Positions 42-56,472 of a DNA stretch of 64,000 nucleotides are shown here, one piece after another. Below the pieces are notes generated by a model. The model was not told where the DNA came from, searched no databases, and saw only the letters and a program-made list of their open reading frames with translations. The position numbers were made by a program, and so were the translations under genes. The stretch comes from Sphaerolaimus hirsutus (lineage: Eukaryota > Nematoda > Chromadorea > Monhysterida > Sphaerolaimidae), in NCBI GenBank assembly GCA_964036195.1, contig OZ038457.1:19619147-19683146 (forward strand), given 5' to 3'. The first letter of the stretch is position 1, and each line of letters begins with the position of its first letter.

Positions 42-3000
42 ATGTACCCCCTGAAGCCTTTGGCGCACCCGCCGGCCGATCTGAGACCCACTGTGCCCGG
101 GGTGTATCCCATGAAAAGTCTGCATGGCTGTGGTGAGCTCGTGACCAATGGGCCTCAGGTGTGTAAGCCTGGGCGCGCTTTTAGTTTGAGACAAGCGGTT
201 TTAGCCTTTCGAGCTGAGGCTCGTGCTTGTGTACATGCATACTGTATTACCTCGAATTATCCCCCCCTTGAATAAACCCCCTCGAATTAACCCCCTCAAA
301 ATAATAATAATATTATTTTTATTTGGGCTGGGGAAATAATAAACCTCCCCTCGAAATACCCCCCCCCCCCGGAATGATGTACAGGGTTGGTTTTATAAAA
401 ATCATTTGTATACAAATTGTATAAAAATTGTATAAAAATGTATTTTATTTTTATTTTATTCTTGTTTCATTTTATTTTATTTTATTCCAAATTAATAATA
501 AAATGGACCATTTTACAAAAATTTTACAGAAATTTTACAAAAAAATCAGAATATTGCATGCAAGGTCAGAAAAATGTGACTATTAGACCTAAACATGAAA
601 AACGTGTGACAAATTTTTACATTACTTTGCAAAAGTTGGATGCAGTAGGTATTGTTAGCTAGTTGCAAGTGTTAAGTTACAATTATCGATTAGAATGGTT
701 GCATTTTCAGTAGAAGGATTACTGGAGTGTGCTGGGCGCATTTGTAAAAAAACATGCAAAGTGTCAATTGTCATGACAAATGTAGTAAAGAGTCAATTGG
801 CATCTCAACTGTAAAGCAAAGTATAATTGTCATGACAAATGTCATGCACAGTGTAAATTATGTATCTGAATCTTATGTTTTGGTATCCAAACCTTATATT
901 TTGGTATCCAAATCTTATGTTTTTGTATCCAAATGTTCACATAAAATTTGGTTACAAAAGATAAGATTTGGATACAAAAGATAAGATTTGGATACAATTT
1001 GCTTTACAGTTTCCACTTTAATTTATATTTGTCATGACAATTGACACTTTACTTAACATTTTCATGAAAATTGACACTTTCCATTCCATTTCGTATGACA
1101 TTTTGACACTTTACATGGCTTAGGACTGCCCCAGCTCCGCGAATGAACAGGTTGAACTACGAACAACAGAAAAAAATTTTTACAAAAATATGAATTTTTA
1201 TACAATTTTTACAAAAATATGAATTTGTATACAATTTTACAAAAATTTTACAAAAATTCGAATTTTTATACAATTTTTATTTTTATTTTGAAATTTTCCA
1301 TTTTATTTTATTTTATTTTATTCTTCAATTTTCCATTTTTTATTATTTTATTTTTATTCTTTTCTGAGATTTTGCCAACCCTGATCATGTATGCAATGTA
1401 CATGATGTATTTATTACTGCTAACTTGCATTGCAGCTACACATAGACTAGTTTGTGTAACTGTCTACGTTTTTATGTTCAAATATATCCTGTTGGGACAC
1501 ATTTATTACCTGTTTTGGGTACGCAAATGCCAACTATTTACTACGATCCTTACGAAATTTTCTGACGAAGTAAAAAAAACCCTCGAATTAATCCTCTTCA
1601 AATTTTGCTGGCGAAATAATAAACCCGTGTCCTTTTTACAAAAATATGAATTTGTATTTGTCCTAAGTGAAATAAAATTAGACCCTGGTGTAATACTGCC
1701 TGTCCACTCTCACCACCATCCAGGTGCCTTTCAACTGCGGCACTACCAACACTAGCGCTCCTGCAGCCGTTCCAACTTCAACAACGAACGATGCGAGCCC
1801 TGAATTGGAGTGCTGCCAACAATCGTCCGATCCATACCCCACTCACGATTTGGACGCCGCCCTCAGCGCAGTCAGGTCTATGACTGCGCGTTTGAATAAA
1901 CTTCAAAGGGGTGCCGCTGGAGATGGACATAGGAACGTTTATTGTCCCGTTCCTATCAAGGGAGAGGTTGTGCCGTGCGAGGTATTTCAGACTGGTGGAT
2001 TCAAAGCGCTGGTGCGTTTGAAATATTGTCGTCGTGGTGCGCACCACTACAACAAGATGCCGCAAACGAGGCAAAATACCACAGACCAGGTGTCTCCAAT
2101 GGGGGGGGGGGGTTACCCCCAAACCGCCCAGCTATCTATCTATCCCAGAGGCCGCTCAGCTATCTATCTATCCCGGAGGCAAAATTTTGGGCTACTACCC
2201 CCTGACCCCCCCCCCCAAATCGTCCAGCTATTTACCTATCTGGAGCGATTTTTGAGAAACTATACCCCAATTTTCGCTCAAAATCCCTGTTTTTCATACC
2301 TTTTTTATAGATTTTCACCTCCAAAATCACTAGTTCATGCGTCTAACTGCCTATGTTCAGCTATTTTTAGTGCTATATGTTCTTGTATACCCATTTTGAG
2401 CTATTTTACACCTACTTTTAGCGATCTTTCTCCCTTTTCTTCCTTCTATGCCCCGAAAAAGCCTATATATCGAACCACCACAACCCCCCCCCCCCAGAAA
2501 ATTTATCAGCTATCTATCCCTGCGGAGGAGCGATTTGCTATCTATCCAACCACTCGGAGGGTCAAAATTCAAGATACCCCTGCCACAGACTCCAAGATTT
2601 CAAAAGTTGAGTTAAGCACGGAAACGGTATCCTAAATTTTACAACGTCACTGCCCCTTTTCAAGAATCACATTTTGACATTTTTGGGACAATTAGGAGCA
2701 AGTTTCAAAAAAATCAGCAAGAAGTCAACATTTTTTGGTAAAAACTATTAAAAAAATGTTAAATAATCTAGGACGCCGACTTCTAAAAGTCGACACTTAA
2801 GCTCCGCCTACCCAGTCAAAATCGTCTCATTCGAACACGATCACAATCGGCATCCGTGGCGACAGCGACAACTCTGCCGCGTGGCTGCCCGCGTTTTTGG
2901 CTGTTTTGAAGGATCGCCTTGGCGGTCGTTTGCAAGTGCGCAGCTACACCCATAGCTCAATGGGAGGTTGGCTGTTTTTATTTGAGCTTTAATTAAAAAA

Positions 3001-4102
3001 TACTGAGAAACGCATTTAAATGCATAGATTTTAATTTGACGCAGACGCGCGGGTTCTCTGCGACGCGTTGGCCCCCTTCAAAGATTGTGCTAATGACGTC
3101 GCTCTCCAAATTGATGTTATTTTCAACAGGGGTTAGTTGGCGGCCTTAAAAAAAGTCAAGTCTTACCTAATTGGGTGAAGACAACCCTGTGTACGCACAC
3201 GTACGGATGACACATGATTTTTACACGGATTGTTTTTCTCAAATTATGGTACATCAAAAGGCATCAAATTTGGTAGCAATTCGCATGGATTTTGAAAGCA
3301 GTAACTAAGAAGATGTAACGGCTGAATATATATTTTACAGGCATGACTGATTCATGCATTCCTTCATTTTATCTACTATTTACAAAATCACTTCTCACAA
3401 CAAAGTCGAATCTTCAGGCGGCCCGCTGTGTGTCGATTACAACGGCATTCGGACGGTCGGTGTGGGTGCGCTGCGCACTTTGGCACTGCTGGCTGGCTTG
3501 TTGCCAGAAGTGGAAAGTGTTCTGGACAAGACAATCAAGGTTGGATCGTATTTTGTGCATTTGTATTACGACTAGATTGTGTGGCTTAAAAGTTTATAAG
3601 GTGCCGCTAAATGTTTTTTTTGTTTTATATTGGTGTATTTTAAACACTTGACAAAAAAATACGTCCTCATCTTGACCAAATCCCTATCAAATTGTGTGAC
3701 GAAAAACCCTGAGGGGCCAATTCGACATTATACTGTATTCAACATTTCTCAGTGAATGCAAACACCTAAATATGTAACTGATATGAAAAAGCTACCTAAA
3801 TATGAAACTCCAGCATTGGCCCCACACACAATGTGCAAATTTTATTTTCTGCAAATTTTCCCAGGCTCGCAACGGGCTGTCTTTAGACGAGTGCTTCGCT
3901 TTGGCCTGTGACTTTGCCACAGCTGGTGGATCTGCTGGGCATGCAGGACAAATTGGCGCGCTTTTTGGGCCCAGCAAACAGTGCAAGTCGGTTCTTGTCT
4001 TTAAAAAATTCTTTTTTAATCGACTCAATTCAATTGCCGCAATGCAGGTTCGCTTGCGGCAACAAGCCGAACATGGTTGACATTCTGTTGCTGACACAAT
4101 GA
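42..4102 (+). CDS. AIMP2: AIMP2-like (p38) multisynthetase-complex scaffold protein, left copy
   Basis: Scaffold subunit of the cytosolic multi-aminoacyl-tRNA synthetase complex (family knowledge). I build seven exons: 42-158, 1724-2011, 2816-2966, 3045-3131, 3418-3539, 3865-3990, 4048-4102; the joins of the first five are phase-consistent. The N-terminus (MYPLKPL, then VYPMKSLHG) resembles the AIMP2 start. Exon 2 has a heptad-like segment (DLDAALSAVRSMTARLNKLQ), exon 3 a thioredoxin-like YTHSSM motif, and exons 5-7 a GST-C-like part ending FACGNKPNMVDILLLTQ. About 315 residues, against 320 in human. Oddity: exon 6 starts in one frame (ARNGLSLDECFALACDF) and ends in another (LVDLLGMQDKLARFLG), so the exon sum is one base over a multiple of three. 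Convergent with the GTPase gene, 383 bp away. Confidence 0.72.
735..1135. repeat. TGTCA/TGTAAA word array with TATCCAAATCTTAT units
   Basis: Dense short words CATGACAAATGT, AGTGTCAATTG and TATCCAAATCTTATGTTTT, in both orientations, in AIMP2 intron 1. Ends GGACTGCCCCAGC as in the CAGTCCC foldback family. The same TATCCAAATCTTAT words recur at 61270-61300 and 63962-64000. Confidence 0.6.
2087..2582. mobile_element. hAT-like element with CTATCTAT words, in AIMP2 intron 2 (left arm only)
   Basis: Ends CAGGTGTCTCC... and ...GATACCCCTG lie between direct copies of CCACAGAC (2079-2086 and 2583-2590). The interior repeats CAGCTATCTATCTATCC and long G/C runs. The right arm has no counterpart; its corresponding intron carries a different foldback element at 57935-58098. 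Confidence 0.75.
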
Positions 4103-4485
4103 ATTGTTTCAGAGCTGCTGTCACGAATTTAGGCGTTTTTGTTGTTTATTATTTATTGATTGTTGAAATAGCATTTTTTTTTTGTTTAGAGGAAGACATT
4201 CTGGAGGCTTTCACCCATTGATTCGAATGAATCACAAGTCATAAAAATGTATGGTTCTGTACAAACCGGAGTAAAAAACGTGCCGAATTTCCTCTAAATA
4301 CCCCCCTTGAATAAACCCCCCCTCGAAACCCCCTTCCCCCTCCCGTCAAAATTTCCACTCGGAAAAATAAACCCCTGGGGTTATTTAGAGGAAATACGGT
4401 AAATATATCTCTTGTTTTCTGTGTTTCATTGCACAGAAAGCTCGTGCCATCAGTCATGACTGCCAGAAATGTTGGAACATTTTTT

Positions 4486-7400
4486 TCATTTGCAACATCC
4501 TTTCTTCTTTGGCGGGGCTATGTCAAGCTTGAGCGCCTCCTCTAGATGTTGGTCCTCGCGTTCTTGCAGGTGCCTGCGTTGGGGTGGGGTCACAATTACA
4601 CATAGTACATGTAGCGCCATGTCTGGGGTGCAATTCTGCATCTTGTCAAGTAGTATTATATGTGACAATAAATTAACTTATTTGTGATTTGTCAATACAT
4701 ACATTTGACAATACAGGTCCCACTCTCAGACCCTGTAAAATGTCACTTTTGACATGACATTTGACATTTCACAGTTCATTTTCCATGACTTTTGACACTT
4801 TGCATGACATTTGACATTTTACAGAGTCTGGGAGTGTCCCCAGCTCGTGACAATTGAACAACCATAGCGCACTCACACGGCCATGGCTCGCATGCACTCT
4901 GGCACGCCGTGTCCGCTGCACGCGCTCGTCTCGAAGAACAGGCAGCCGTAGCTGTCGGCCAGCTTGGACCCGTCGTCGCTGGTCACCGCCCTGGTGCAGC
5001 TGTCGCCGGGCGTGGCGCCGCCCTCGAGGATGTCCACCTTGTTGCCCACCAGGCACAGCACGCAGCCCGACTCGACGCCCTCCTGTTGTTGAGGGGGTGG
5101 GGGGTTGCGCGATTTCAATTAGATCTCGCACTATTCAAGTTGCCTAGTTATGTCTAGTGCCACATTTCAGACGACTGTTACAAAAATCGGCTTTAGCTGT
5201 CAGGTGGAAACGTTGAAGGCTGAAGACCTGTCCTATTATCATTTTACAGTAAATTTGAAAATATGCGCGCTTTTCATTTGATGCTGCATTTTGGGTATTG
5301 TCCACCCGCACCGGTGGACATCTTCCTACACCAGTGGACAATGCTGTCGATATCTGGGGCGCCACTGACCATGACATTGTTCATCCAGTTGCGCACGTTG
5401 ATGAACGACAGCTCGGAGGTGACGTCGTACATGAGCACCACGCCGTCGGCCTTGCGGAAGTACTGCTTGGTGATGCTCCGGAACCTGGCGCCGCGTTTTA
5501 GTCATGAAATAGGCTATTTGAGGCAAATATTTGGTATAGTCGGGAGTAGTGATGGAAAAAGCGCCAGGCTTTTAGCGCCAAGCGCCAAAAGCGCCATGGC
5601 GCTTTTCCGGTCCACGGCGCCAAGCGCCAATGGCGCCAGAGCGTTTTAGCGCCAAGCGCCAAAAGCGCCATGGCGCTTTTCTGGACCACGGCGCCAAGCG
5701 CCAATGGCGCCAGGAAGCTATAGCGCCAAGCGCCAATGGCACCAGCGCCAAAATAAAAACGCTTCTTATTATGCAGCACGATGTCCCAAACAGCCCCATC
5801 CCGAAAAATTTTTTCCAGCTACCGTATTACCTCGAAATACCCCCAGGGGGTTTATTATTTCGCCAGCAAAATTCGAGGGGGGATAATCCGAGGGGGGGGG
5901 GTTATTCAAGGGGGTTAATTCGAGGTAATACGGTATCTACCCAACCTCCGCGAGAGTCAAAATCAAGGGGGTTGGATTGGGTAGATACACTCATTTTCGG
6001 TAGGAGTGTATCTCAAGGGGGGAGTATTATTTCTCCAGCACACTCAGACCTGGGTGAATTTCAAGGGGTAAATACGACGTGGTAAATTTCGAGGGGGTAA
6101 ATTGAAAAAGACCCACCTTGATTAACACCCACTCGAATAACACCCACTTGAGTAACTTCCCTCCAAAACTTACTGACGAAATGATAACTCACTGGGGTCT
6201 TATTCGAGGATATACGGTAGCTAGAATTGTGAGTAAATGAGGAGCAATTTTGGACAACCTACCTATGCAACATTTCGATGTTTTTAGGGTACTCACAGTG
6301 ATCAAATGCAAATTTAACAGGGCTTGGGAACAAAAATTTTGTCAGGTGCAAGAAATCGTTAAGTCCACTTGTTTAGTAGACTTCTTCCTGGATTTTTTTA
6401 AATTATGGTCGGCGCTTTTTTGGCGCCATTTAACATGCTGGCGCCAGGCGCCAATGGCGCCACCAGAAAATGGTGCCAAGCGCCAAAAGCGCCATGGCGC
6501 TTTCTCAGATCCCGGCGCCAAGCGCCAATGGCGCCAGAGCATTTTAGCGCCAAGTGCCAAAAGCGCCATGGCGCTTTTTGCTTTGGCGCTAGCGCCAGGC
6601 GCCAGCGCCATGGCGCTTTTCCATCACTAGTCGGGAGCATTCCCGCACCCTGTAAACTGTCAAATGTCAAGCAAAGTGTCAAAAGTCATGTACAATGCAA
6701 AAGGCATTTTACATGACTTCATAATTTGAATGACATTCTACAGAGTCTATGAATGGCACCCCAACCCCTCGCGCACCTTTCCTGTCCCGCAGTGTCCCAC
6801 AGCTGCAGCGCGACCACCCTATCACCCACCCTGATGCTTTTCACCGTGAAGTCGACGCCGATGGTCGCACTGAATGTGGGTTTGAACGTGTTGTGGCAGA
6901 ATCTATGCAAGAAGCAGGTCTTGCCCACGCCCGAGTCGCCCACGAAGACCACCTTGAATATGCGGTCGGGGTCCGTGTCGCCCACGAACTGCGTATGGGT
7001 GTCTGCGGTTAAAAGCCTTTAATTCTGACAGTGCACATCCCATACCAGGGCCAATGCAAAACCCTGTAAAATGTAAAATGCCATGTAAAATATAAAATTT
7101 CAATAAAATGTTGTATCAAAAATCATGTAAAATGTCATGAAAGCTGTCAAAACATCAATAATAAAAAAACTTGACATTTTACAGTACTGTTGACACTTTG
7201 GAGGACATTTGACAGGGTTTGGGACTGGCACCAGATTTATTTACAAAGTAAGGCGGGTCCAATTGAATTCGACTCCATGCATGCCACTCAACCAACCCCC
7301 TCATCATTATCATCGGTAGCCGCATACTCGGGCGTGCCCAGTCCCAATCCATAGGCCCCGGCGCCGCTGCCGCCGCGCTGCATGGCGCTCTGCTGGTTGC

Positions 7401-10400
7401 CGCGCGGCTCGGCCGTCAGGCCGGCCAGCTCGTCCGCTAGGGAGGCGCCCCCGCCGCCCAGCATGGAGCCTGGGGGGGGGGGTTGAGTGGGGGTGGTATT
7501 TTATGTGAAGTGGTGCGGTTGGCATGAGGGGATGAGTCGAAAAGCGAGGATCATTTTCATTCAGTGATTTATTTGAAGTTTATAAGTTTTTTTCGTCACC
7601 TGACTTATCGATGATAACTGCTTGTCGCCAACTACTTACCAAAGTTGACTACTTATCACACCACATATTTATAAATATCGAACTTAACTTGAGCATATTA
7701 CTCATAACTTATCACACTTCTTGTCACTTATCTAGATTAATACTTGCGGAAGTGCCCCCCAAAGATTCACCTGCGGGTGGAAGTTGCGCTTCGCGTGCAG
7801 CATTCACCCTCTCCACTTCCTCGTCATACATCGCGTCGTCGCCCAGCATGCTGCAAGTTAAAATACAACCAAATAGTTTAATTACACACAGCGATTGATG
7901 CGGCAGCATTATTGGTTTCATTTGTCAATTGAATTTTGAATTGAAAGTGTTAAAAATGTAAATTATCGGGTGGGCGCGCCAGCGCCATCCCTCGCTGCCG
8001 AGGGAGGGCGCAAGCGACCCACCCATAATATGGTCAGACACACCTATATTTAATGTGAACTTATTCAAATGAAATATCTGAATTATTCAAAATATTAAAA
8101 ACCTTTTTTGACAATCAATCAATTTGAAAACTGCCGTCAACTGACACACGTCAATTATAGTGTAAATACCTATAGGCATACACAATCACTCAAACTCCAA
8201 CCCCCACCCACCCATTTCCATTCTGCAAATCATCATCCAGTCCATACGGATTGCCACCAGCATTGGCCAACCCGCCCTGGTGCTGCAGCACGTCGTCCCT
8301 ATCCATCAGCATCTGGCTGCTGTCCTTCTTGGCGCCCGGCACCGACTGCGAATGGCTGCTGTACGTTTGGATGGGTGGCGGCACAGCTGTGAATACTTCG
8401 TCACGCTCGTCTTGTAGTTTGATGTTTTGCTGTCTGGGTTTTTTTGGGGTGGATTTGGTGGCGCGGTGGTGACTTGTGGGCACTGTGTTGGATAGATATG
8501 GATATGCATTTCTATTGATGTATTTACCTTTGTGGGTTGTGTTGTAAACATCTATTTTCGACATAAAATGATTTATTACACAGTATAATTGTTACACCTG
8601 AATGTGAATGCTATGTTTGATGGGTTTTTATTGAACATAGCAGACATTTAATAACAACGGCTGCACATGTGCCCTGGCCGGCTGTGCAAGCTAGCATGCC
8701 GTAAATCCTTTAATAAGACCCCAGGGGAGTTATTATTTCGTCAGCAATAAGTAAGGGGGAGTTATTCAAAGGGGGATGTTATTGAAGTTATTCTTTCCAC
8801 TTTATTCTTTAGTTCCACTTTATTCATTGTATGAATGCATTGCATCAACCATGTAATCCAGGTATTTCACATTTTAACAACAACCAAAACAAGGTATTCA
8901 TGCTAAAATTTGTGTCCATCGGCATCTGAATCATTCAAATACACATTGTGGATACACATACCAAATACCTAGAGGGGGAGTTATTCAAGGCGGTGGGTTA
9001 TTTTTTTCCTCAGCTGGCCAACAGGGGGGGGGGGTTATTCAAAGGGGAGGTCTTATTCAAGGATATACGGTGAATACAAATACACCCCCAAACACAAACA
9101 CCCACACACAAACACCCACCTCAAATGGTCAATAGTCTTCACAAATCCCTCCCTCTCATTGGCCACATTCTCAGTGACCCTCAACGCATTCTGCGCCTTG
9201 GCCCTCTTCTCCAACTTGGTCACCTGTTTCAGTTTGTCCAACTGCGTCCTACTGTCGTCGTGTTCGCGCCGCAGCACGTCCAGTTCCAGTTGCATTTGCA
9301 TGCGTTGACGTTCGAATGCCGCTCGCTCCTGGGTGGGGGGGGGGTATTTGAGGGTGAATGAATGGATTGAATCTTTGTGAGGTGGCGGTAGTTCGCGAGT
9401 TTAAGGACAAGTAGCAGGAAACTATCGTAAAGTACCGTATATCTTTGCATAAGCCCCCCCCCCTCGAATAACTTCCCCTTAAAAAACTTCCCCCTCGAAT
9501 AACTCCCCCCTCAAAAATAACTCCCCTGGTGGCAGTCCCAAGCCCTGTAAAGTGTAAAGTAAAGTGTCAAATGTAAAGTCAAATGCAATTGCAATGCAAT
9601 GTAAAGTCAATTGTCATGCAAAGTTCAGTAATAAAATCTTTTATTTTTGTTTTGATTGACACTTTACTTTGCATTTGACTTTACATTTGACACTTTACTT
9701 TACACTTTACAGGGCTTGGGACTGCCCCCAGACGTCTTATTCGAGGATATACGGTATAAGTAAATTAATGACTGACAAGTCGTGATACTGTAACTTTTAA
9801 GTGATAATTAAATACCGTATTACCTCGAATTATCCCCCTTGAATTAACCCCCTCCCCTCGAATCAACCCCCCTCAATTTTGCTGGCGAAATAATAACCCC
9901 CCATGGGGGTATTTCGAGGTAATACGTTACCTTCATTCACACATTCGCTAGTTGCTTTATTTACCACTTATAATTTTGTCTGCCAGTTATCACTTTTCTT
10001 GTCACTTGTCAATAACGATGGCAAACCCTCCAAAAAAAAGTATTTAAATTTTTAAGTGTTTTTTCCAAAATGAATTTTCGAATTTTCGAATTTTTCCTGA
10101 CATTAATTTTCGAATTTCGAATTTAATTTTCGAATTTTTGAATTTTCGAATCTTTTTTGGCAATTTTCGAATTTTTTGGGCTATTTTTTGAATTTTTTCA
10201 AATAATTTTCGAATTTTTTGGAAAAATATTGAATCTGAAGCTTTTAACACAGAATTGGGACTGTTTTGGAAGTGGGTGACACACTGAGTGTACTCAGTGC
10301 ATACAGTGCTGACTTCACAAGATACGGGTACTTCTCAAACCAATACTCGAAACCACTCTTATACTCCAGTGACATTACACCTTACAATGAAATCTACCAT

Positions 10401-13400
10401 ACCCCATCTGAATAAAAGGACAAACATTACATTTTTTTAATTATATTTATCTAATTGCTTTGATAAATATGATGAATTTATTTTAATTTTGGTTCTTTTA
10501 TTCAGATGGGATATGGTAGATTTCAATGTAAGGTGTTATGTGGCTGGAGTATCTCTTTGATCACATCCCTTTTACTTATAAATATGTGCAGTTCCTTTGG
10601 GCAGTCCCAGACACCTGTAAAACGCTCTGTGAAATGTCAAGTGTTATGCACATTGTCTAAAGTCATGGAAATGCTGTGGAAAATTTCAAATATGTTAGCC
10701 ATTTTCAAGGGCATTTTCATAACTTTTGACACTTGCAAGACATTTCACATTATACATTTCAACGTTTTTGGACGTTTTTTTGTTTTGTTTCGCTTTTTCA
10801 TACGCACCGCGTATCATTTGTCGTTTTATTTTGCACGTTGAACCTATGAGTGCGTTTTTTTTGCCTTGAATTCCTTAAAAAATTTGAAAAGTATTTTCGA
10901 ATTTTCGAATTTTTGAATTTTCGAATTTTTTGAAAAATAAATCGATTTTTAAGTGTTTTTTCTAGGGGTGAAATAAAAATTCGAAAATTCCGAAAAAATT
11001 CGAAAATTCGAAAATGTTTTCGAATTTTTGAATCTTTTTTTGCCATCGTTACTTGTCAACTTGCGGAATTAGCATCAGGATGCAAATTCAATTGACTCTC
11101 CTGATTTGTCAATTAGTTCAAACTCACAGCTGCCACTTCTTGTTTCTCCTGCTCGCTCATGTGCGCAGTGTCTTTCAGCGAGCCAAGCTGCTTTTCTAGC
11201 TACAATGTGGTTGTTTTTGTCGAAAAAAGTCTTATTCGGGTCTATGAAAGTGGCTAAAATTGCAGCATCTCACAGTGGTTTGTTTCCGAATAATTTCCTG
11301 CATCTCGTCGTCCTTGGCTGCGAGCGCCCGTTCCAATTGCTCCCTTTCCCGCTGTGCTTTTTGCCGTTCCTGAGCCCAGGTTTTATTCGAATATAGGTTG
11401 ATTGGTTGATGATGTAGGACTACGATTAGGGAACGAGTGTTGCGGGGCCATAGTTCAAATAAAGGGCGCTCGAGTATGGAGTTGTAATGGAATGGCACCA
11501 TGGCGCTGGCGCTGGCGCCATGTGGGGGCGTTAAAGAGCGCCGCGCCATGGCGCCATTGGCACTTTTCGATCACTGGACGCAAATAAGAGGACGGATTTG
11601 TGCATGTTCTGGCACCATTTCGTGGAGTTTCTCGCATCTTAGACGTCAACTCACATTATACCATTATAAAATTTGGTACCAGGGCACATATTTTTCAACA
11701 CAACTTGTCAGATATGAATCAACCCTAAAAAAACTCCACCTCAATGGCCACTTTCTCCTTCTCCGCCTTCAATTGCTGCTCCATTTCCTCATACAACTTA
11801 TTCACTTGTTCGTCATGTGTTTGCGTCCTTTCGTGCAGCGCATTTTCCAAAGTGGTAGTTTCGTTCTTTTTGCGTCGCAGCTCCCCAGAAATGTCGGATA
11901 GGAACGATTCGAAGTGGGTCAGGAGTTCCGGGTCGTCATGACGCAGTTTGGTCCAGAGAGATTGGACCGAGGGTTGTCTGATTTTGTGGATGTTTGTATT
12001 TTGGTGTTACTGTGGAGAATGAGCTATTGGCGCCTTTTCGGAGCATTTTTTTATGGCAGCATATTGGCCCGGAAATAAGGTACAGTGACATTATTCCCTC
12101 GAAATATCCCCAGGTCTGAGTGAGCTGGCAAAAGATAAACGCCTGGGAGTTTTTTGAGTAAATATTGTGTTTACTGTTCAAAATATGTATTTAATGTAAA
12201 TATTGAATCGAATGTGACATTTGCAATTCAAACAATTTATAGTAGGTAGATTCAATCAACTACTAGTTAATCAAAGCAGTTAATGTGCTTTCCTTTGAAG
12301 CCCTGCATCATTTTCTTGACTCGAAACTTGACAGATTGAGAATTTACAGAACATACTCGGCGAAAACGTCGACAGCACCGATACTGTGCATTAGGTCATC
12401 GAATTGCTCCTTATCTGCTGCCGGGTCTTCCACTTTCTGCAAGTGACACGAGCAAGTAGCATTTTCCAATTAAAGTACCTCCTATCGACACCCAATTTAC
12501 ATTCATATAATTTTTTTAAATGTATACCTAGTTAAATATAAATAGAATTCATGCAACGCTCTGCTTTGCAGAAAACTGTCAGAAAATCGCTATTTTTATT
12601 TCATTCAAACCACCATTTGACTGAACCTGGAAATGACATGACAGTCGTAATTCAGTATTTATTTAACTACTGCCATTTAAGATGTAGGTACCTTTCTCAC
12701 TATTGGACTGTCAAATTCAGACAACTTACCATATTGGCAGTTTCAATTTCTTGCGCCAAATTCGCCGGCTCAGCGGTAATCGTCTCAGCTCGTAAACCAA
12801 GAAAAGCGCCTGGATTCAAATTCAAATAATGGACAGTTGTCAATCTCTTTTAATAGAAATCACTGACAAACCAAAGCCGTTGACAAATTCCTCCATAGTG
12901 AGGTAACCATTTTTGTCCTGGTCGAGCGAGTCGAAAACTTCTTCAAGTTGGTCAGCCGTCAAACCGGGGAGTTCATCCTTCAAAAATGGACAAATTCATT
13001 CAAGTGTTTCATGGAGGGCGTTAAAAACATCACAATGTGCCTACACACACTAGTTTTCCTCGTGACTTCGTGGGAAAAAAACTGTAGTTTTTCAAATGCA
13101 GATTAATCAACACGGTTGAATGATTTTATTTAATTTTAATGTGAATTTGAATTTATGAAACTTAAAATTTGAAAACTACCACATAGCATACAATAAGAGT
13201 AGGCTGTATGTCGCCATGTCGCCATTTCAGTTTTCACAGGAGTAACGGTAAGAACTAGTGTGTGTAGGTAGGGCCCATGCACCAACCCTCAACTTTTGCA
13301 TATCAGTCTTGATAATAAAACCCTTGTCATCCCCATCACACAGCGCAAACATTTCTTTGGCTTTCTGCACGGCCACCTGCCCCATTTGCGACTGGTCGAA

Positions 13401-13956: not shown

Positions 13957-14032
13957 GTCTTCCTTACTGTTGATGATACCCATGTTATTTACTTTGGGAT
14001 GCAGATACTCCATATTGTGGTGACTGTACACC

Positions 14033-16000
14033 TAGGGTGTCAAATTTCCGTTTCTGTTTTCTGTTTCCGCCTTTCCGCAGGAAAATTTTTTACCTTTCCG
14101 TTTTCCGTTTTCCGGCAGCTGAAAAATTTTTACCTTTCCGTTTTCCGTTTTCCGGCAGCCGAAAAAATTTTACCTTTCCGTTTTCCGTTTTCCGGCAGCT
14201 GAAAATTTTTTACCTTTCCGTTTCCGTTTTTCCGGCCCATTTTTCCGTTTTCCGGCTGAAAAATTTTTACCTTACCGTTTCCGTTTTACCAGGCCATTTT
14301 TCCATTTTCAGGCTCGATTTTCAGTTTTCTGGCATTTTTCCATTGTTTTTCCAATCTGTATTTATCTTCAATTGGCTCATCCCATTGTGTTGTTTTTGTC
14401 TCTCGGAGCAGCATTGACAACTGGGATTTCAGAGTCAGTGAAACAGGTGCTGTGAACCCAATTGGGTCATATGCTGACACCAATAATTTATTCAAGTTTT
14501 GTCTGGTTGGTGTTGTGATGCTGTCAATTTGCAATTTTGGTGTTGATATTGCCAGCATGTCCGTTTGGTGATTTTATTTCATGCCCATTACTGCGACAAT
14601 TTTATTCACCTTTGGACTCCTGTCGTTTTTTTGCTATTTCATTCATGACTGATCTGGAGTTTGACAGCCATTCCCTCATGTTCATAGAACATTGGTTAAA
14701 TAAAGCTTTGACTTTGTAATATAGTTCTAAAGCTTCAACTTCATTCGTGACACTCATGATGAAGTTATCAATGTAAATGTTGTTTATTATCATCGCCAAC
14801 TGGTTTTGTTCCCCTTCATTTTCTTCATATTCATTCATGTTGTTTATTGTCACATTGGAATGGTATTTTATGACTGCTCCCAAAATTGCTGGGCTGCAGA
14901 CAGGTCCAAACAGTACGCGTTTAAAAAGAAGTACTATTAAGTTATTTTCAGTTACTGGTTTTGAGTCATCTTTCAGCCAGAAAAATCGTGTGTAGTCTCT
15001 AGCTTGGTCATGCAATCCTATTTGCAAAAATGCCTTTTCAATATTGGCAATGAATGCTAGATTGCCTGCCCTGAACCTCAGGAGTAGGCCCAGTGCTAAT
15101 GGTGTTGTAATTGGTCCTCTAAAAAGGCACTCGTTGAAACTGGGCTTACCTGACAACCCATTGTACACAATTCTGCATGATGTCGATTTGCCCAGTGTGA
15201 TAACTGGCTGGTGTGGCAGGTAATGAATCCCCTTGTTGTCTGTTTTGTCATCACAGATCTCGATTATTCCCTTTTCTAGTTGGTCATCCAAAACTTTCTG
15301 GTATTGTTTGAATAAGTTTGGATCTTTGTTGAATCTTCTTATCAGTGATTTAAACTGCACCAAGGCTTCTGCTTTTCCCGTGGGCAGGTCACTGATACTC
15401 TCTTTATACTGCCAGTCAATATAGTATTGTTTGTTGTTGTTGTTGAATTTTATGCTATTTATTATCATCTCCTCTGCAATGTTGTCATCAATTGCATAGG
15501 GGTCATCAGTGATTCCCACTGCTTCTAGACTGTGAAATTGTCGTAGCGTTTCCTTTCCTATGGCCACTATGGCTACTTTTTGATGATTTTTTGTTGGTTC
15601 AGTTAAGCTTGAACTACAAGTGAAGTTACAGGCATGATCCATAGTTGCAGAATGTACAGCTACCACAATCAAAGCCAAACAGGCAAACCTGCATGCAGGT
15701 TTTCTTTCTGCAAATTTGTCTATTACAAGTGCTAATTTCACTTTATTTTTTTCCGTTTCCGTGAAAATTTTGCTTTCCGTTTTCCGTTTTCCGGCATTTC
15801 ATTTTTCCGTTTTCCGTTTTCCGGCCGACAATTTTTTTTTACCTTTCCGTTTTCCGTTGAGTGAAATTTTTTTACCTTTCCGTTTTCCGTTTTCCGGCAG
15901 AAATTTTTTGTTTACCTTTCCGTTTTCCGTTTTCCGTAAAGTGAACAAATTTTACCTTTCCGTTTTCCGTTTTCCATAAAAAAAAATTTTTGACACCCTA
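14033..16000. mobile_element. hAT-like element, TTTCCG word array, carrying a Bel-Pao pol fragment
   Basis: TIRs TAGGGTGTCAAA / TTTGACACCCTA are flanked by an 8-bp TSD TGTACACC (14025-14032 and 16001-16008). The other arm has the empty site near 47650. Both ends (14033-14345 and 15745-16000) are dense arrays of TTTCCGTTTTCCGG-type words; the middle is retrotransposon pol sequence. Length 1968 bp. Confidence 0.85.
14286..15741 (-). pseudogene. Bel-Pao retrotransposon pol fragment (reverse transcriptase), broken
   Basis: A long minus-strand frame (14602-15741) carries the Bel-Pao signature order YLPHQPVITLGKS, RIVYNGLSGKPSFNECLFRGP, then IEKAFLQIGLHDQ, then NIYIDN. A second frame (14286-14558) continues with AYDPIGFTAPV, so there is at least one frame break between them. 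The catalytic aspartate expected just before IEKAFLQ is N, and there is no gag, protease, RNase H, integrase or LTR. It is a dead fragment embedded in the hAT element. Confidence 0.85.
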
Positions 16001-24410: not shown

Positions 24411-24424
24411 ACTGTTTATGTATA

Positions 24425-25164: not shown

Positions 25165-26709
25165 ATGGGCGAGCCCTCGGTGGACCCGAACATGGCGTCG
25201 ATGCCCGCCTCGGGCGGCAGCTCGTCGCACACTATCTCCAATCCGACCGAGAGTCGCATGGCTTTCAAGGTTGGGTTAGGTTGAGAGGGCTTGGGGCAAT
25301 GGAACGCGAGAAATCGATCAACTTCCTGGGGCAGTCCCGCACCCTGTAAAGTCGTGTCTTGAATGTCATGCAAAATGTCAGTAATAAAATCTTTTCGTTT
25401 TTACTTTATTGACACTCTGCATGACTCCACGCTGCGCCATTCAATCACTACTAGTCGCTCTAAAATAAGGCACGAAACATTACCCTCTAAATAGCCAAAT
25501 TTCGGGACGAGCTGGCGGAAAAATAAGCCCCCTGAGTTAGACGAAATACGGTATTTAAACACACCCACACCCGAATCCAATTCCCCAAACGTAACAACCA
25601 CCTCAGGTGAAAACGTCCGACAACGCCCTGTACAAGGTGAACCCCGTGTTCGGCTTCGTCGAGCCCGGCTCGCAGGCGTCCGTCGAGGTGACCCGCTCCG
25701 ACGGGCCCGCCAAGGACGACAAGCTGATCATCCAGCTCGCGCCCACCACCCCCGACTGCGCCGATCCCAAAGTGAGTTTAGTGGAGCCGGGTGGGGGGGG
25801 GGGTTGAAACGTGGTGTAAAAACGTCGATGTATTGAACGTCGAAGAACCGGCAGCGTTGCTCTGTAGCTACTTGTACTATTTCGTATATAACCGTATTTC
25901 CTCCCAGGGGGTTTATTTTTTCAAAGTGAGAATTTTGAGGGCGGTGGGGTTTAACGAGGGGGGGTATACCTGAGTGACGTGACACCATCCACGCGTAGTT
26001 ATCAGTGCCTCGCGTTGGAAGTGCGCCAACGATTATTAACGCATGCTAGTTTCGTGAACAACGTAAAGTCACTGATCTATGTAATGCATTAACGGTTATG
26101 TAAATATTTTAAAACGTTAGTGATGGTAATAAATCCGTAGCGCAATCTATTTGACCTCTCGAATTGAATCAGCTTTCTCTACAAGCCCAGCCCGCTCCCT
26201 CAACACAGCAAAGTTGTTAAAACCGTATTTACGTTTACTCGATAAATATTTACGGATACTCGAGTACTGTGTAAATACGTTTACATTTCTCCCTGAAAAA
26301 AATACCGGTACTCACTTTCTCGCGTACTTTTTGAAAGTATGCGAGTACAGTAAACGTATTTCAAAAAGGCTATTTTATAGGATTTTTCAAGGCATAAAGG
26401 AAACAGAGAAAAGCTCAAAATATCCAAAATAGCATAAAAAGAGGCAAAAAAATTAACTAGTGAATTTGATCGTGAAAAAGTTCCAAAATTAGTGAGTGAA
26501 AATTGGGGCAAAATTTCTCAAATACCCACTTTTACGTTTTCCACCGACAAATGTAATATATTCACGTTTACTCATGAGTTAAAATAAATACTTATTGTTT
26601 AAGTTTACTTTCGAAAAAGTTCAGTACTTTTAACAACTCTGCAACGCAGGAGCCGTTCTCCGCGGGCGGCACGTTCCCCGAGCTGCCGGTGGCCCTGTCG
26701 GCCGCCTAA
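25165..26709 (+). CDS. Small MSP-domain (sperm-specific class P-like) protein
   Basis: Three exons: 25165-25269, 25607-25771 and 26650-26709, all phase 0, giving 109 residues. The order GGSSSHTISN, then AFKVKTSDNALYKVNPVFGF, then EPGSQASVEVTR, then KDDKLIIQLAP, then a short tail ending VALSAA matches nematode SSP-type single MSP domains, an immunoglobulin-like fold used in sperm motility or VAP-like binding. An in-frame upstream stretch (SGSAATPTPTPTAA) is open, so the start could lie further 5'. Third positions are strongly GC-biased, unlike the flanks. An AATAAA lies at 26958-26963. A hAT element fills the end of intron 2 and abuts exon 3. It could instead be the tail of a longer VAP-like gene. 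Confidence 0.75.
26209..26641. mobile_element. hAT-like element abutting exon 3 of the MSP-domain gene
   Basis: Ends CAAAGTTGTTAAAA / TTTTAACAACTCTG; flanks CAACACAG (26201-26208) and CAACGCAG (26642-26649), an 8-bp TSD with one mismatch. The interior has ACGTTTACTC words. The right-hand TSD ends in the AG immediately before exon 3. Confidence 0.78.
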
Positions 26710-40800: not shown

Positions 40801-43800
40801 CCCAAACTCGACGCGGGCGCCAAGAAAGCGCCCGCGGCGGCGGGCAACCCGCTGCACCTGCCCACGAACTCCCTGCGGCGCGCGCGCGGCCGCTCCGTGG
40901 ATAGGGACGACACGGCGGGCACGTTTCAGGCGCCGGCGCCCCTTGACAAGCCTGGTGCTAAGGCGCCCCCAGGGCGCACTGAAGCACGTTCGACTGCGGC
41001 GACTGTGAAGTCGAAAGCTGGCGGCGAGATGAAAGGGAATAAGCCTGGTTGGTGTGCTTTTCGGGCATCGTTTGTCGGCCCACTCAGTGCACTCGCCTAT
41101 ATTTATAAACGCAGCTGGCAAAGTGCCGAGTGTGCACGAGCGGCTTTACCGCCGCCTGCAGACCACCTCGAAGCCCCATGCGACGGAACAGAAGGAAATT
41201 AAGGTGGAAGCCCATGCGGATACTAAAGTTTGTCGATTGAATATCCTGTTGCATTGCAGTGATGATGCTGTATTCAATGGCGACCCACATACTAGTTGAC
41301 ACATGTGTCTCAATTGGTCTGTCAACTCAGATTTTCGCTTCACGTGTCGCAGAGGGATCTTCCAATGCACTTGCCGTGATATTTACTTTTCAACGTTGCG
41401 CCATGTGCATTTGGAGACACATGAAACTGAAATCTGAGTTGACACACGTGTGTTAACTAGTGTGTGGGTAGGGTTCAAACGATATATCGTATCGAATATC
41501 GGATATCGACCATTTTTTAATATCGAATATCGATATCGAAAATTTTGAAAAATATGGAATATCGAATATCGACATTGAAAATTTTGAAAAAATATCGAAT
41601 ATCGAAAATTTTGATAAAATATCGAATATCGACCATATTTTCGATATATCGAACCTGTATAATGTCCTTAATTGAGTTATTATTTTTGTTTTGAGATATT
41701 TGTGATTAATTTGATTTGCTTATAGTATCTAAGTTGATGAGTAAAAGTAAAGTATTTAATGTTATCTTTGTTGGAGTGCTTACTCCACATTTCTTGTATT
41801 TGGTTTGGCCACATACCTACTGAACTACCTACCTCATATTTGAAGCCAGAAAATGCTGATATGCTGCTTTTTTGCAACATGCCCTTAAACAATTGGGTTA
41901 TAAGTATGAATTGTTGTATCTACCAATTTTTGTTTGTCTGATACAATTTGATTTGTCATGTTTTTTCTTCCATTTTTTCATTCTGACCATTGTAAACCTT
42001 GTTAAAATCAATTGTACTTTTCAGTAAAGAGATAATCAACCATGTTTGCAACCATATGAAAATACAACATGCTGCTTGAAATATGCCTTGCTATACCAAA
42101 AGCTAAATATCGAATATCGAAAATATCGAAATATCGATATCAAATATCGACCATTTTTTAGTATCGAATATCGATATCGAGGGTCCATATTGTATCGAAT
42201 ATCGATATCGAAAATTTTGAAAAACTATCGAATATTTTGAAAAAATATCGAATATCGATATCGAAAATTTTGAAAAAATATCGAATATCGATATCGAAAA
42301 GTGATATCGTTTGAACCCTATGTGTGGGTCGCCATTTATGTATACAATATACCAGAGTTGTACAAATACTGGTATTTTTGGAAAACGTAAACGTAAATAC
42401 CTTTTCCAAATCAAAAGTATAAATACTAAAACGTAAGGTATTTTTTAAATACCTGGGAAAACGTAAAATAAAACGTAAACGTAAAAATTTTATCAAGTGC
42501 TTCCACTGTGAGAGGACATAAAAAGCCATGTTTTTACAACATTACGGTTGTTCTTATGATCTCCACCCACATTATCTGCTTTTATTTTATCTAGAGGGAT
42601 GAAAAATAGTGAATTTTTGGAGGAATGAAAAATGAGACAGTGATGCTGTGATTATCACCACCTGGTTTTGGGATGTCACTGTGATGACATGTTGTTTTGT
42701 TGCATCGTGCATTTATTGTCGTCATCACCAAACTCATTCATTGACAGTTCAGTATGCAATTTATTTTGAAGACATTTGATTGATGGGTAAAACCAGCGTG
42801 CACCAAATTAGCATTCACAGAACGATCACATAGACTGCGCAATGAACACCCACCTCAATTCAGTTCTAATATTTTCCATACCTAAATGGTATTTTTTGTG
42901 TACATATTTACATAGGTGAGTGTTGCGGAGTGCGAACAGAAAGCATTATGTCTAATGTCTATTCGCGGGGGGTTGTGGCGGGGGGTTGTGAAGCTTTTTT
43001 AAAGTTGACATTTTACTTAGTCGATGGTTTGAAAATACTTAAATTACTTTAAAAGTATACGTTGAACTTAATACAATGCTTACAAATTGTGATATAGTTA
43101 TTCATTTGGGACCTTTTACACATTGTTTGAAAGTGCATTTCTGAGAATAAGCTATTAAATGTTTTCTTAAATAACGTTTTTTACGTTTTCTGTGGTACCC
43201 GGGTATTTTGGCCAGGAAAACGTAACAAAACGTAATGGTATTTTTTGAAAACGTAAACGTAAGTATAAATACCCGAATAACCAGGTATTTCGGGTAAACG
43301 TAAATACGTTTTTCCAACTCTGCAATATACCACTTGCTCGTCGCAGTCGCGCCGGCCGTTGACGCGCAGCGCCGCGCCGCAGTTTGCCACCGACGCGCGA
43401 CTTTCCAAACGGTCGGCATCCGTGGAGCGGCACCACAAAAAGGAGACCACAGCAACAACCAAAGTGAGAATCTGGGTTATTGGCACCACACACGCCAACT
43501 AAATTATAGTTTATTATGTGATTTCAACTTTCCTATCTGATAGATCATAGTTTGTTGTACATCATGGTACTGAATTTTCATTGGTTCTGTCAAGTGTGAT
43601 ACTTTCTAGAAACTTTTTGTGTTATTTAGTTGACATTGAGTTGACACGAATTTGCGATGTCAACTAGCGTGTGTGGACCCAATGGGCGGTACGGTAGGTA
43701 TCCATTTGCAAAAAAAACTGTTCTAAGTGATTACTGTAAAGTGTTTGCGCATCAACAACCCACCATTGGGGTTTAAACGGGATTGGCTTTTTCCGATTTC

Positions 43801-44628
43801 GGGATCGGGATTGGGGCCACTGGATCGGTATCGGATTTGCATTTTTTCGGGATCGGGATAAGGCTCTCGGAACCGAGATTTTGGAATCGGGATCGCGATC
43901 CCGTTTGAACCCTACCCACCATTGTGTTAAATTCTCTACGATCGTGACGTGATTGTCGCTCAGGTGCCCCCCGCGCCGCGGCCAGACTCGTCTGCAAGCG
44001 GGCGCTCGCTGTCGGGCCACGCGAAAGCCGCCTGGACGCCCACGAAGGTGCAGCCGTTCCATTTCGCCACCGACGATTTACTCAGCAAACGGCGCTCACA
44101 TGCTTTGCGTTGGCTTGGGGGGTGTTTAGATAGGGTGCATTTGGGAGGGGGGTGTTTAGATGGGGTGCATTCGGGAGGGGGGGTGTTTAGATGGGGTGCA
44201 TTCGGGAGGGGGGTGTTTAGATGGGGTGCATTCGGGAGGGGGGTGTTTAGATGGGGTGCATTTGGGAGGGGGGTGTTTAGATGGGGTGCATTTGGGATTT
44301 TTCAACCTATTCTCGAAATTCTGTTTTTTTTATCAGCGGATAACAGATTTTTTCACATTCAGCTGTTTTCATATTGTTTTTCTCTATCGCCATACCATTC
44401 CGACGTCTCAAACCACTTCCAAAGGTGCTCAAATGATTTTCACATTTGAAATCTCCCCAAAAAATCGCAGCAATGACGTCGCCTCCGCGCGACCCGCCTC
44501 ACCCGTCGGACAGCTACGTTGGCAAGGAGCCAAGTGCGATGCACGCGAACGACAGCAACGATGTGACGCTGGAACAGCAGCAGATGCAGGTGCCCGCCGA
44601 TCCGATGAGCGCCGATGTGGCTAAATGA
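34805..44628 (+). CDS. TPX2: TPX2-like spindle assembly factor / Aurora A activator (complete copy)
   Basis: Thirteen exons: 34805-34925, 34985-35047, 36149-36369, 37287-37546, 38504-38680, 39348-39442, 39854-40002, 40301-40388, 40748-41047, 41115-41203, 43347-43463, 43964-44108, 44471-44628. All joins are phase-consistent; 660 residues against 747 in human. Residues 1-40 carry the Aurora-A-binding signature: Y9...APKFYDF, then DSWFERRAE at 31-39. The middle is low-complexity, rich in S, P, K and A; the later part has two TPX2-type FATD-x-LSKR segments (exons 11 and 12). Family role: activates Aurora A and nucleates spindle microtubules. Odd points: exons 7 and 9 each encode an NP-x-HLPT-x-S-x-RRAR-x-RSVD motif, and no C-terminal kinesin-5-binding region is evident. 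Exon 9 onward lies in the right inverted arm. Introns hold five hAT insertions larger than 350 bp. Confidence 0.85.
35055..35735. mobile_element. hAT-like element with ATATCG words at the 5' splice site of TPX2 intron 2
   Basis: TIRs TAGGGTTCAAACGATAT / ATATCGTTTGAACCCTA with perfect TSD GGTATGTG (35047-35054 and 35736-35743). Ends are arrays of ATATCGAATATCG; the centre (35190-35560) is single-copy-like and is shared with the element at 41469. Confidence 0.88.
36878..37046. repeat. CCCATCCCGCAA foldback in TPX2 intron 3
   Basis: TTCCGCAAAAAAGCCCATTCCGCATTTTTGCCC... and its reverse complement closing at GCAGAATGGGC. Words GCCCATTCCGC and CCCATCCCGCAA repeat in the arms. Confidence 0.7.
37744..38309. 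mobile_element. hAT-like element with TTTCCG words in TPX2 intron 4
   Basis: Starts TAGGGTGTCAAATTTCCG, ends AACACCCTA; TSD CTTTGCAT (37736-37743 and 38310-38317). Nearly the whole 566 bp is TTTTCCG-TTTTCCGGC word array. Long frames on its minus strand are by-products of the array. Confidence 0.85.
38784..39166. mobile_element. hAT-like element with ATAGATAG words in TPX2 intron 5
   Basis: Ends CAGGGGTTTCC / GGAGACCCCTG between perfect TSD copies ATTGATGG (38776-38783 and 39167-39174). The interior includes GGATAGATAGC near both ends and AAAATCGCTAAGAAT-type words. Related to the element at 2087-2582; a fragment lies near 29545-29645. Confidence 0.8.
41469..42320. mobile_element. hAT-like element with ATATCG words in TPX2 intron 10 (right arm only)
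   Basis: TIRs TAGGGTTCAAACGATAT / ATATCGTTTGAACCCTA with TSD TGTGTGGG (41461-41468 and 42321-42328). It landed in the end of a TAGTTGAC foldback element. The left arm near 20835 is empty. Confidence 0.88.
42353..43322. mobile_element. hAT-like element with ACGTAAA words next to TPX2 exon 11 (right arm only)
   Basis: TIRs CAGAGTTG / CAACTCTG with TSD CAATATAC (42345-42352 and 43323-43330). Ends are arrays of AAACGTAAACGTAAA and AAATACC words. The insertion is 24 bp from exon 11. The left arm near 20605 has one GTATATTG. Confidence 0.88.
43767..43914. mobile_element. 148-bp hAT-like MITE with ATCCCG words (right copy)
   Basis: Same element and insertion site as 20019-20166, inverted; TSD CCCACCAT at 43759-43766 and 43915-43922. 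Confidence 0.8.
44112..44300 (+). repeat. Minisatellite of about 31 bp in TPX2 intron 12 (right arm, expanded)
   Basis: About six tandem units of GGTGTTTAGATGGGGTGCAT followed by TYGGGAGGGG. The left arm (19741-19815) has about two degenerate units, so the array length differs between arms. It starts next to the exon 12 donor. Confidence 0.8.
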
Positions 44629-55292: not shown

Positions 55293-55599
55293 AAAAAAAA
55301 TGTTTGAACATTTCTGGCAGTGATTACTGATGGCACGAGCTTTCTGTGCAATGAAACACAGAAAACAAGAGATATATTTACCGTATTTTCTCGAAATACC
55401 CCCAGGGGTTTTTTCCGAGTGAAAATTTTGAGGGGGAGGTATTTCGAGGGGGGAGGGGGTGTATTTCGAATAAATACGGCACGCTTTACTCCGGTTTGTA
55501 CAGAAACATACATTTTTCTGACTTGTGATTCATTCGAATCAATGGGTGAAAGCCTCCAGAATGTCTTCCTCTAACCAAAAAAATGCTATTTCAACAATC

Positions 55600-55605
55600 A
55601 ATAAA
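55600..55605 (+). terminator. Polyadenylation signal AATAAA of the GTPase gene (right copy)
   Basis: AATAAA about 310 nt after the stop, conserved on the minus strand of the left copy near 4150-4165. Confidence 0.5.
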
Positions 55606-55680
55606 TAATAAACAACAAAACGCCTAAATTCGTGACAGCAGCTCAGAAACAATTCATTGTGTCAGCAACAGAATGTCAAC

Positions 55681-56472
55681 CAGAGTTGTTAAAATACCGG
55701 TATTTTTGGAAAGTGTAAGTGTAAGTGTAAATACACTTTCCAAATTTTGAGTATGGATACCAAAAGTGTAAGGTATTTTAAAAATACCTAGGAAAGTGTA
55801 AAAAAAGTGTAAGTGTAAAAAAATTTTTTAGAAAGAGCTCTCACTGTTGAGCATTATAATACACCACTGTTTTCACCTTTAGATCAATATATTTGTCATT
55901 TTTATGCATCATTTCACATTTTACTGCCTTTTATGAAACATTTCAGACTGTAGCAAATACTGTAGTGGTATGTAGTTCACTAATAATGGCACTTTTTCAG
56001 TGTTGATATTTACTGATTAAGCAATGCAATACACACTGCTTAAATGCAAGATTGGACATGCAGCAAATGTCAATGCAAAAGCCAGTTGACTTTGTGTCCA
56101 GCTGGTGAATTTCCATTGATCTTGTCCTTTTTACAAAAGTATGATGAAACTATAGAATACCATGAGTACTGATCAAAGGTTGGAGATCAAAGGCCAGTTT
56201 GTACATTTGCCATATTTTCTACATTCAATGCATAACTGCATGTGTGCACTGTGCAGTTATTTTTTGTACATGACCCTATTTTATGCTTTTTCAAAAGCAT
56301 AAAACAGGGCCATCTGAAAGAAAAAAATACACTTTCTGTACCCGGGTATTTTGCTCAGGAAAGTGTAAAAAAAGTGTATGGGTATTTTATGAAAGTGTAA
56401 GTGTAAGTGTAAATATAAATACCCATTTACCCGGGTATTTCGGGTAAGTGTAAATACACTTTCGCAACTCTG
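55681..56472. mobile_element. hAT-like element with AGTGTAA words inside the last AIMP2 coding exon (right arm only)
   Basis: TIRs CAGAGTTG / CAACTCTG with TSD ATGTCAAC (55673-55680 and 56473-56480). Ends are arrays of AAGTGTAAGTGTAA, a word differing from the ACGTAAA sister elements although the TIR is the same. The left arm at 4073-4090 is uninterrupted coding sequence. Confidence 0.9.

Follow-up and report, generated by a model that had tools for sequence, protein, structure and literature searches.

The DNA analysed here, referred to as the window, is a 64,000-nucleotide stretch of the Sphaerolaimus hirsutus genome (G000:C13:19619147-19683146; the assembly comprises 348 Mb in 762 contigs). 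The window contains 14 elements resembling hAT transposons, which have short terminal inverted repeats (TIRs), duplications of an 8-bp target site (TSDs), and arrays of a short family-specific word, such as TTTCCG, ATATCG or ACGTAA (Table 1). Gene pieces are also present, including Ras-family GTPase frames at 53454-53864 and 54752-55147. Much of the window, as assembled, is a large inverted duplication (1-21507 versus 40618-59473) composed of pieces of ~86-96% identity, and the two arms differ by many insertions, thereby offering naturally occurring filled and empty sites. N letters, which appear as X in the translations, occur at ~21507-21740. In this work, the elements of the window were compared with their relatives across the genome, and we report that elements sharing one TIR fall into discrete word classes.

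Word-bearing elements of the window

Table 1. hAT and hAT-like elements of the window, with the matching bases of TIRs (out of 14) and TSDs (out of 8) where reported
Element	Position	TIR	Word	TSD	Other
hAT-like element	2087..2582	8/14 (tied, weak)	CTATCTAT x6, all same strand	CCACAGAC 8/8	
hAT-like element	5547..6629	TAGTGATGGAAAA 13/14	GCGCCA x42	GTCGGGAG 8/8	
hAT element	10013..11051	TAACGATGGCAAA	TTCGAA	CTTGTCAA 8/8	empty site in opposite arm
hAT element	14033..16000	TAGGGTGTCAAA	TTTCCG at both ends, 36 words, 36:0	TGTACACC 8/8	empty site
hAT element	20019..20166	TAGGGTTCAAACGG/TGGGGTTTAAACGG	ATCCCG	ATGGTGGG 8/8	
hAT-like element	26209..26641	CAAAGTTG/CAGAGTTG 13/14	ACGTAAA, few (2)	7/8	
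hAT element	30677..31458	CAGAGTTG	ACGTAA class; NNGTAA: AC 13, GC 0, GT 0	GAGGCTGC 8/8	
hAT element	35055..35735	TAGGGTTCAAACG 14/14	ATATCG class, 29 words	GGTATGTG 8/8	
hAT element	37744..38309	TAGGGTGTCAAA	TTTCCG x23, 23:0	CTTTGCAT 8/8	
hAT-like element	38784..39166	CAGGGGTYTCC 11/14	CTATCTAT x5, single strand	ATTGATGG 8/8	
hAT element	41469..42320	TAGGGTTCAAACG 14/14	ATATCG class, 37 words	TGTGTGGG 8/8	empty site
hAT element	42353..43322	CAGAGTTG	ACGTAA class; NNGTAA: AC 12, GT 1, AT 1	CAATATAC 8/8	empty site
Arm copy of 20019-20166	43767..43914			CCCACCAT 8/8	absent from the list of the initial annotation
hAT element	55681..56472	CAGAGTTG	GTGTAA class; GT 12, AC/GC/AT 0	ATGTCAAC 8/8	empty site

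The initial annotation of the window named 13 elements with 8-bp TSDs. All 13 proved to be real, with exact duplications in 12 of them and seven matching bases in the element at 26209; after addition of the fourteenth element, 43767-43914, the TSD is exact in 13/14. Exact 8-bp TSDs also flank 3/3 additional CAGAGTTG elements. The short TIRs expected of hAT elements include CAGAGTTG, TAGGGTTCAAACG, TAGGGTGTCAAA, TAGTGATGGAAAA and TAACGATGGCAAA, and their two ends agree at between 8 and 14 of the 14 bases compared; the weakest, at 2087 (8/14), has a score tied with another solution. A coordinate-free scan of the whole window for an 8-bp TSD combined with a TIR recovered 11 of the 14 elements (2087, 26209 and 41469 were missed) and returned two additional chance pairs, both within GCGCCA arrays. 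Words also occur near 29660-29771 and 33630-33850, where the best TSD candidate matches at only 6/8 bases.

Since the arms of the inverted duplication differ in insertions, the joined flanks of an element could be compared with the other arm. An unoccupied site with a single target copy was found for five of the 14 elements tried (Table 1). Among the remaining nine, 20019 and 43767 represent the same insertion in both arms, the elements at 26209, 30677, 35055, 37744 and 38784 lie beyond the aligned arms, and the joined flanks of 2087 and 5547 have no spanning match in the other arm.

The words form subterminal repeats at both ends, and in 13/14 elements they are more numerous than in any of 300 dinucleotide-shuffled versions of the same sequence, the exception being 26209 (2 words, equal to the shuffle maximum). 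As many as 72 exact copies occur in a single element (L061). The words are not ordinary microsatellites: this reading is ruled out because word density in elements of the own family is 30 to 672 times that outside elements. The claim of the initial annotation that the interiors are filled with words stands for the outer parts, which are word-rich, and fails for the middle, the central fifth being empty in 12/14 elements; the exceptions are the two 148-bp copies (20019 and 43767), with one word each. Similarly, the presence of words in both orientations was confirmed for ATATCG (23:6, 29:8), GCGCCA (30:12) and, trivially, the palindrome TTCGAA. It mostly does not apply to ATCCCG (6:1), while TTTCCG (36:0, 23:0), AGTGTAA (12:0) and CTATCTAT (6:0, 0:5) keep to a single strand through both ends and ACGTAAA nearly does so (8:1, 7:1). 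The TAGGGTGTCAA ends listed have the same polarity, mostly TTTCCG or CGGAAA when read from the tip. A foldback architecture, that is, one long inverted repeat, does not fit, because several arrays keep one direction through both ends.

Word classes on shared terminal repeats

The initial annotation proposed that the word changes while the TIR stays, and this is borne out in two TIR groups with three words each. In the CAGAGTTG group, the elements at 30677 and 42353 share their ends with the one at 55681 and differ from it in the word, as had been noted; the ends align over ~135 bp each, with ACGTAA in the former and GTGTAA in the latter. Between 30677 and 55681, 24/24 ungapped word columns differ, compared with 29/250 framework columns (Fisher p 4e-20), and between 42353 and 55681 the values are 20/21 and 30/241; the word columns were chosen from the GTG element, which favours difference, whereas within the ACG class a pair of elements shows a difference in 0 to 1 of these columns. 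The third word, GCGTAA, is a single base away from both ACGTAA and GTGTAA. At the right end, the word and framework columns that differ number 13/14 and 17/120 for ACG versus GTG, 6/14 and 13/121 for ACG versus GCG, 7/14 and 7/120 for GCG versus GTG, and 0/14 and 1/121 for two GTG copies.

With the word places left free, the genome yields 3,478 exact matches for the right-end pattern and 3,843 matches for the left-end one, while the reversed control gave 0 in each case. The first 100 listed right ends all come from contig C1; in 91 of them the two sites belong to the same class (AC 37, GC 33, GT 21), and 9 are other. The first 100 left ends listed divide into AC-AC 34, GC-GC 32, GT-GT 26 and other 8. 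For left-right pairing, 82 right ends fall within the range of the left list, and 59 of them have a left end within 2.5 kb. One word occupies all four sampled sites in 51/59 of these pairs, and the first words are equal in 55/59, compared with a mean of 19.8 and a maximum of 33 in 10,000 shuffles. Genome-wide, an ACG first word is followed by a GCG (3) or GTG (1) second word in 4/3,478 exact-framework right ends, a count that covers ACG with GCG or GTG, mixtures of GCG and GTG being counted only among the first 100 listed ends. When all NNGTAA words were collected in seven elements, 12-15 of a single type were found per element; the least pure is the GCG element L078 (GC 12, GT 3, AT 3, AC 2, with ~40 bases of flank included). 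Thus, the word classes on the shared CAGAGTTG TIR are discrete and nearly pure, and the framework between the words is kept.

The second group is defined by the 13-base TIR TAGGGTTCAAACG, which has 15,514 occurrences in the genome (reversed control, 8). Twenty distinct ends in the first 30 loci continue with GGAT (11), GGAC (5) or ATAT (4), and 9/20 of them have a partner end and a TSD matching at 7/8 bases or more. With a longer pattern, the first 100 ends listed comprise GGAT 37, ATAT 33, GGAC 22 and other 8, although these counts are not unbiased frequencies because the last letter of the pattern excludes G. Adjacent end pairs agree exactly in 10/11 cases, all ATAT, and the eleventh combines GCAC with GGAC. 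In the aligned ends, spacers such as a TTTTC run are kept while CGATAT, CGGGAT and CGGGACC interchange; this alignment has more gaps than that of the CAGAGTTG group, and site-by-site replacement is correspondingly less secure. The TTTCCG group was considered as a third case of switching and rejected, since the first 100 ends listed hold essentially one word, besides ends that are decayed or unrelated by eye.

The initial annotation suggested runaway expansion or replication slippage as a possible origin of the arrays. As the main cause this was rejected: the spacers between words stay alignable through the word switch, the arm-shared pair 20019/43767 is identical at 146/148 positions with no gap, and two families show no excess of gap events in array columns (1.03 vs 1.06 and 1.61 vs 2.68 per 100 bp), a comparison biased by the choice of array columns through exact words. 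Two observations count against the rejection, namely the variation of exact word number between copies (9-17 in seven TTCGAA elements and 22-37 in nine TTTCCG elements) and the gain or loss of single word units in alignments.

Transposase remains and neighbouring repeats

A search of the genome for the hAT C-terminal dimerisation domain (PF05699) returned 28 places, 21 of which are bracketed by one word (TTTCCG 10, TTCGAA 6, ATATCG 3, ACGTAA 2), a place counting as bracketed when the same word occurs three or more times on both sides within 900 bp. By the same measure, random positions in the window were bracketed in 60/4,106 cases outside elements and in 500/5,000 across the whole window. Other PF05699 places are L018, with weaker bracketing (2 and 7 copies) inside a TSD-bearing TAACGATGGCAA element; L011, within a 1,950-bp TAGGGTGTCAAA element with a TSD; L014, flanked by ATATCG arrays when a nested GCGCCA element is taken into account; L017, with ACGTAA words on one side only; and L008, inside a 6,006-bp CAGAGTTG element (L036, TSD CCTTGGCG). 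Matches also lie inside genomic elements that share the TIR of the element at 10013. Elements with GCGCCA, CTATCTAT, ATCCCG, GTCCCG, GCGTAA or GTGTAA received none of the 28 matches, and two matches (L028 and L032) have no placement. Transposase remains with a hAT dimerisation domain are thus present inside the TTTCCG, TTCGAA, ATATCG and ACGTAA families, in agreement with the initial description of the elements as hAT-like. Several word families are hAT elements, and the elements of the window are probably for the most part non-autonomous hAT transposons.

In the 6,006-bp element, the C-terminal exon matches PF05699 at 4.9e-17 and a CxxC exon lies upstream; by eye, the first exon has the CxxC pair and the next one HxxxxH. 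A Pfam scan of ten exon pieces of this element gave an informative match for the C-terminal piece only and none for the middle exons. The label "BED-like" that we use for the first exons rests on their position, the CxxC pair, the similarity between copies and the HxxxxH seen by eye in one element. The dimerisation domain of the TTTCCG family resembles that of ATATCG by eye, and the ACGTAA one resembles that of the 6-kb element.

To compare exons with word classes, first exons were used as queries, the one from the 6-kb element yielding at least 150 matches and that of L084 at least 149 among the matches listed; 14 first-exon places were taken with their upstream end, plus L084 and L085. The ACGTAA ends carry one exon type (L084, L085, L089 and L091, with a CAGTGTTG tip in two), whereas the GCGTAA ends carry another (L086-L088, L090, L092, L093, L095 and L097-L099). 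No GTG-class exon was present among the 14 places taken. In an exon tree of 14 rows, 4 ACG and 10 GCG exons separate with support of 100/100; the tree leaves out L094 and L096 (partial, with GCGTAA ends), and the class of L089, L092 and L093 is given by one word upstream of the exon. This single split is consistent with coevolution of exon and word and with plain shared descent.

Several further features were observed around these transposase relatives and elements. One relative of the 6-kb transposase has its first exon interrupted by a TTTCCG element (L081; G000:C6:2266400-2267700) with TSD GTGGCGAG by eye. Two other relatives of this first exon, L082 and L083 (G000:C1:12787288 and 12785638), are open and lie next to each other; neither has word arrays in the 1.2 kb covered for each, and second-exon matches lie close by at C1:12786560 and 12784430; both are candidates for domesticated copies. 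The Pfam zf-BED matches (L040-L047) lie at G000:C1:7466186-7488779 and 7679975 and at C6:14237406, and the C1 cluster possibly consists of domesticated hAT-derived genes. Inside the TTTCCG element 14033-16000, a 398-aa open frame (14602-15798) has a weak RVT_1 match (E 0.014, below the curated cut-off), which suggests a captured retroelement piece. At least 158 pieces across the genome match the element 5547..6629.

Further combinations of TIR and word are TAGGGTTGGGAA with ACCCGA and CAACGATGG with AACTCA (L037 367-3198; L017 1816-2646). The window also contains palindromic elements that start with CCGTAT and are rich in a C-rich word (5822-5933, 9435-9754, 30516-30594 and 49485-49909), three of the four with TA on both flanks. 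Short elements of the form CCCTGTAAA...TTTACAG, with several TGTCA on both strands, are found at 4731-4826 and 9543-9714, and like stretches were seen by eye elsewhere in the window. Repeats of ~170-180 bp with CACACGCTAGTTGACAT-like ends by eye occupy 17581-17763, 45212-45391 and 57931-58098.

Origin of the word classes

Among the hAT transposons, Tol2 has a CAGAG-type TIR and word-rich ends. The portions of the published accounts considered here describe subterminal repeats as a defining hAT feature (PMC4890040), and the word arrays by themselves are therefore not new. In the housefly element Hermes, the BED fingers read AAGT, present in 17 and 14 copies (PMC10368747); Hermes resembles the elements described here in its 8-bp target, its short TIR and the many copies of a 4-bp motif towards its tips, whereas here the words are longer, reach the copy numbers given above, and differ between sister classes with the same TIR. 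For maize Ac/Ds, the transposase is described as binding AAACGG hexamers in the subterminal 200 bp, which are shared by non-autonomous relatives (PMC3260210). The TTTCCG arrays likewise hold CCGTTT, the complement of AAACGG (25 in 14033-16000); in that system, however, three hexamers are said to suffice, and the same portion of the source describes no series of word classes (PMC3260210). Tgf2 has 17 and 18 subterminal repeats, and its binding is helped by an N-terminal finger; unlike the present case, concerted word replacement does not feature in the portion of that account considered (PMC4890040). In Herves, the motif CGATTCAT is repeated several times at both ends and is sufficient for transposase binding, although that report, in the part considered, deals with a single element and a single motif with single-base variants (PMC3143072). 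The DNA-binding domains derived from hATs recognise diverse motifs, and the motifs of four hAT proteins match their own subterminal regions (PMC8097297). The same source, as far as considered, presents CGG-binding proteins from hATs, whose N-terminal domains have distinct words, across species and domesticated genes, and not as the switch of a whole array in one TIR group (PMC8097297). In titles and the beginnings of abstracts, neither whole-array word switching nor a near-pure series of words on one TIR was found. What is new here is the concerted word switching on a shared TIR.

We propose that the words are subterminal repeats that would be read in multiple copies by the N-terminal zinc finger of the hAT transposase, each word serving as the address of its family. 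When a transposase lineage changes its DNA specificity, the word would be replaced at nearly every site under selection for mobilisation, while the TIR and the spacer framework are kept; the steps would be of a single base on CAGAGTTG (ACGTAA/GCGTAA/GTGTAA) and larger on TAGGGTTCAAACG (ATATCG/ATCCCG/GTCCCG). We assign a probability of roughly two in three to this reading as a whole, that is, non-autonomous hAT elements whose words are transposase-read repeats and in which a change of specificity was followed by concerted word switching. Word binding by the N-terminal domain, the change of specificity as the driver and the direction of the switch are what we infer within it. A role of the words as transposase-binding repeats fits the published biology of Hermes, Herves, Ac and Tgf2, and an arms race is a possible driver of the word change.

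A number of observations weigh against this reading. Mixed ends do occur: among the first 100 listed, GTG with GCG in 2/100 right ends, and GC with GT in 2/100 and GC with AC in 1/100 left ends. The TTTCCG group has essentially a single word, and the TA-flanked palindromic elements are also word-rich, so word-rich ends are not restricted to hAT-like elements. On the side of the enzyme, no complete transposase was found for the GCG or GTG classes, and the exons that we label BED-like have no match to Pfam zf-BED. Only 4 places, all near the 6-kb type, yielded the second half of the presumed finger, so the recognition residues are not comparable between word classes. Over 30 residues, a piece of L096, which has a GCG end, shares 70% identity with the ACG-type query from L084. 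Between the classes, the exon accumulated 0.29 changes per column along two stems, compared with 13/121 in the framework, so exon and framework diverged at different rates. Finally, the portions of the literature considered report that Hermes requires exact phasing of the outer repeats and that its right-end repeats were not seen bound (PMC10368747), and that some Ds1 elements of maize are mobile without AAACGG (PMC3260210); dense arrays thus need not all be bound.

The word classes could instead be ordinary subfamilies, each descended from one founder without selection, in which slippage or gene conversion homogenised the array before spread. The class centres do not align, the exon tree is a single split, so that word and exon may simply share descent, the classes also differ at some framework places (e.g., at ATACYGG and at the two bases after CAGAGTTG), and copies in two other families vary in their number of words. 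Such a history is nevertheless unlikely in our view, as distinct spacers stay collinear and mostly identical while every word changes, conversion or slippage would need to act on stretches of about six bases, and the arrays show no gap-event excess in the biased comparison above. Still less probable is a switch driven by the host, in which a repressor, a domesticated hAT-derived BED protein or a methylation reader binds the words and a change of sites provides escape. A 22.6-kb stretch of contig C1 does contain six of the eight Pfam zf-BED matches, and 4/6 of these loci lack all five hAT tips sought; escape, however, needs the loss of the word and not another pure word at the same places, and no link of the C1 cluster to the words was found, no test having been aimed at one. 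Mutation bias, with the classes as stages of decay, has a starting point in the fact that GCGTAA to GTGTAA is a C to T change in CpG, as expected from deamination of methylated CpG, and in the few ends that mix GC and GT. It is hardly credible: deamination would also yield GCA and mosaics, whereas pure classes dominate, the ACG/GCG and ATAT/GGAT differences are not CpG decay, and the two GTG copies compared differ at 0/14 word and 1/121 framework columns.

The proposed switching of words with transposase specificity bears on the open question of how cut-and-paste transposons split into families without cross-mobilisation. In one genome, three word classes separated by single-base steps are represented by thousands of element ends, few of which are mixed, and the framework is intact. 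Whether this represents the stepwise birth of separate hAT families in one genome, in which a shift of specificity is followed by the rewriting of a dozen-word array with tip and spacers kept and cross-response lost, independently in at least two TIR groups, is in our estimate an evenly balanced question. Such classes would make coevolution of the enzyme and its sites directly testable with short oligonucleotides and N-terminal domains, and they provide a natural series of specificities for a kind of DNA-binding domain that gene-transfer tools employ. If the stepwise formation of families is true, families that share a TIR would cease to respond to one another's enzyme.

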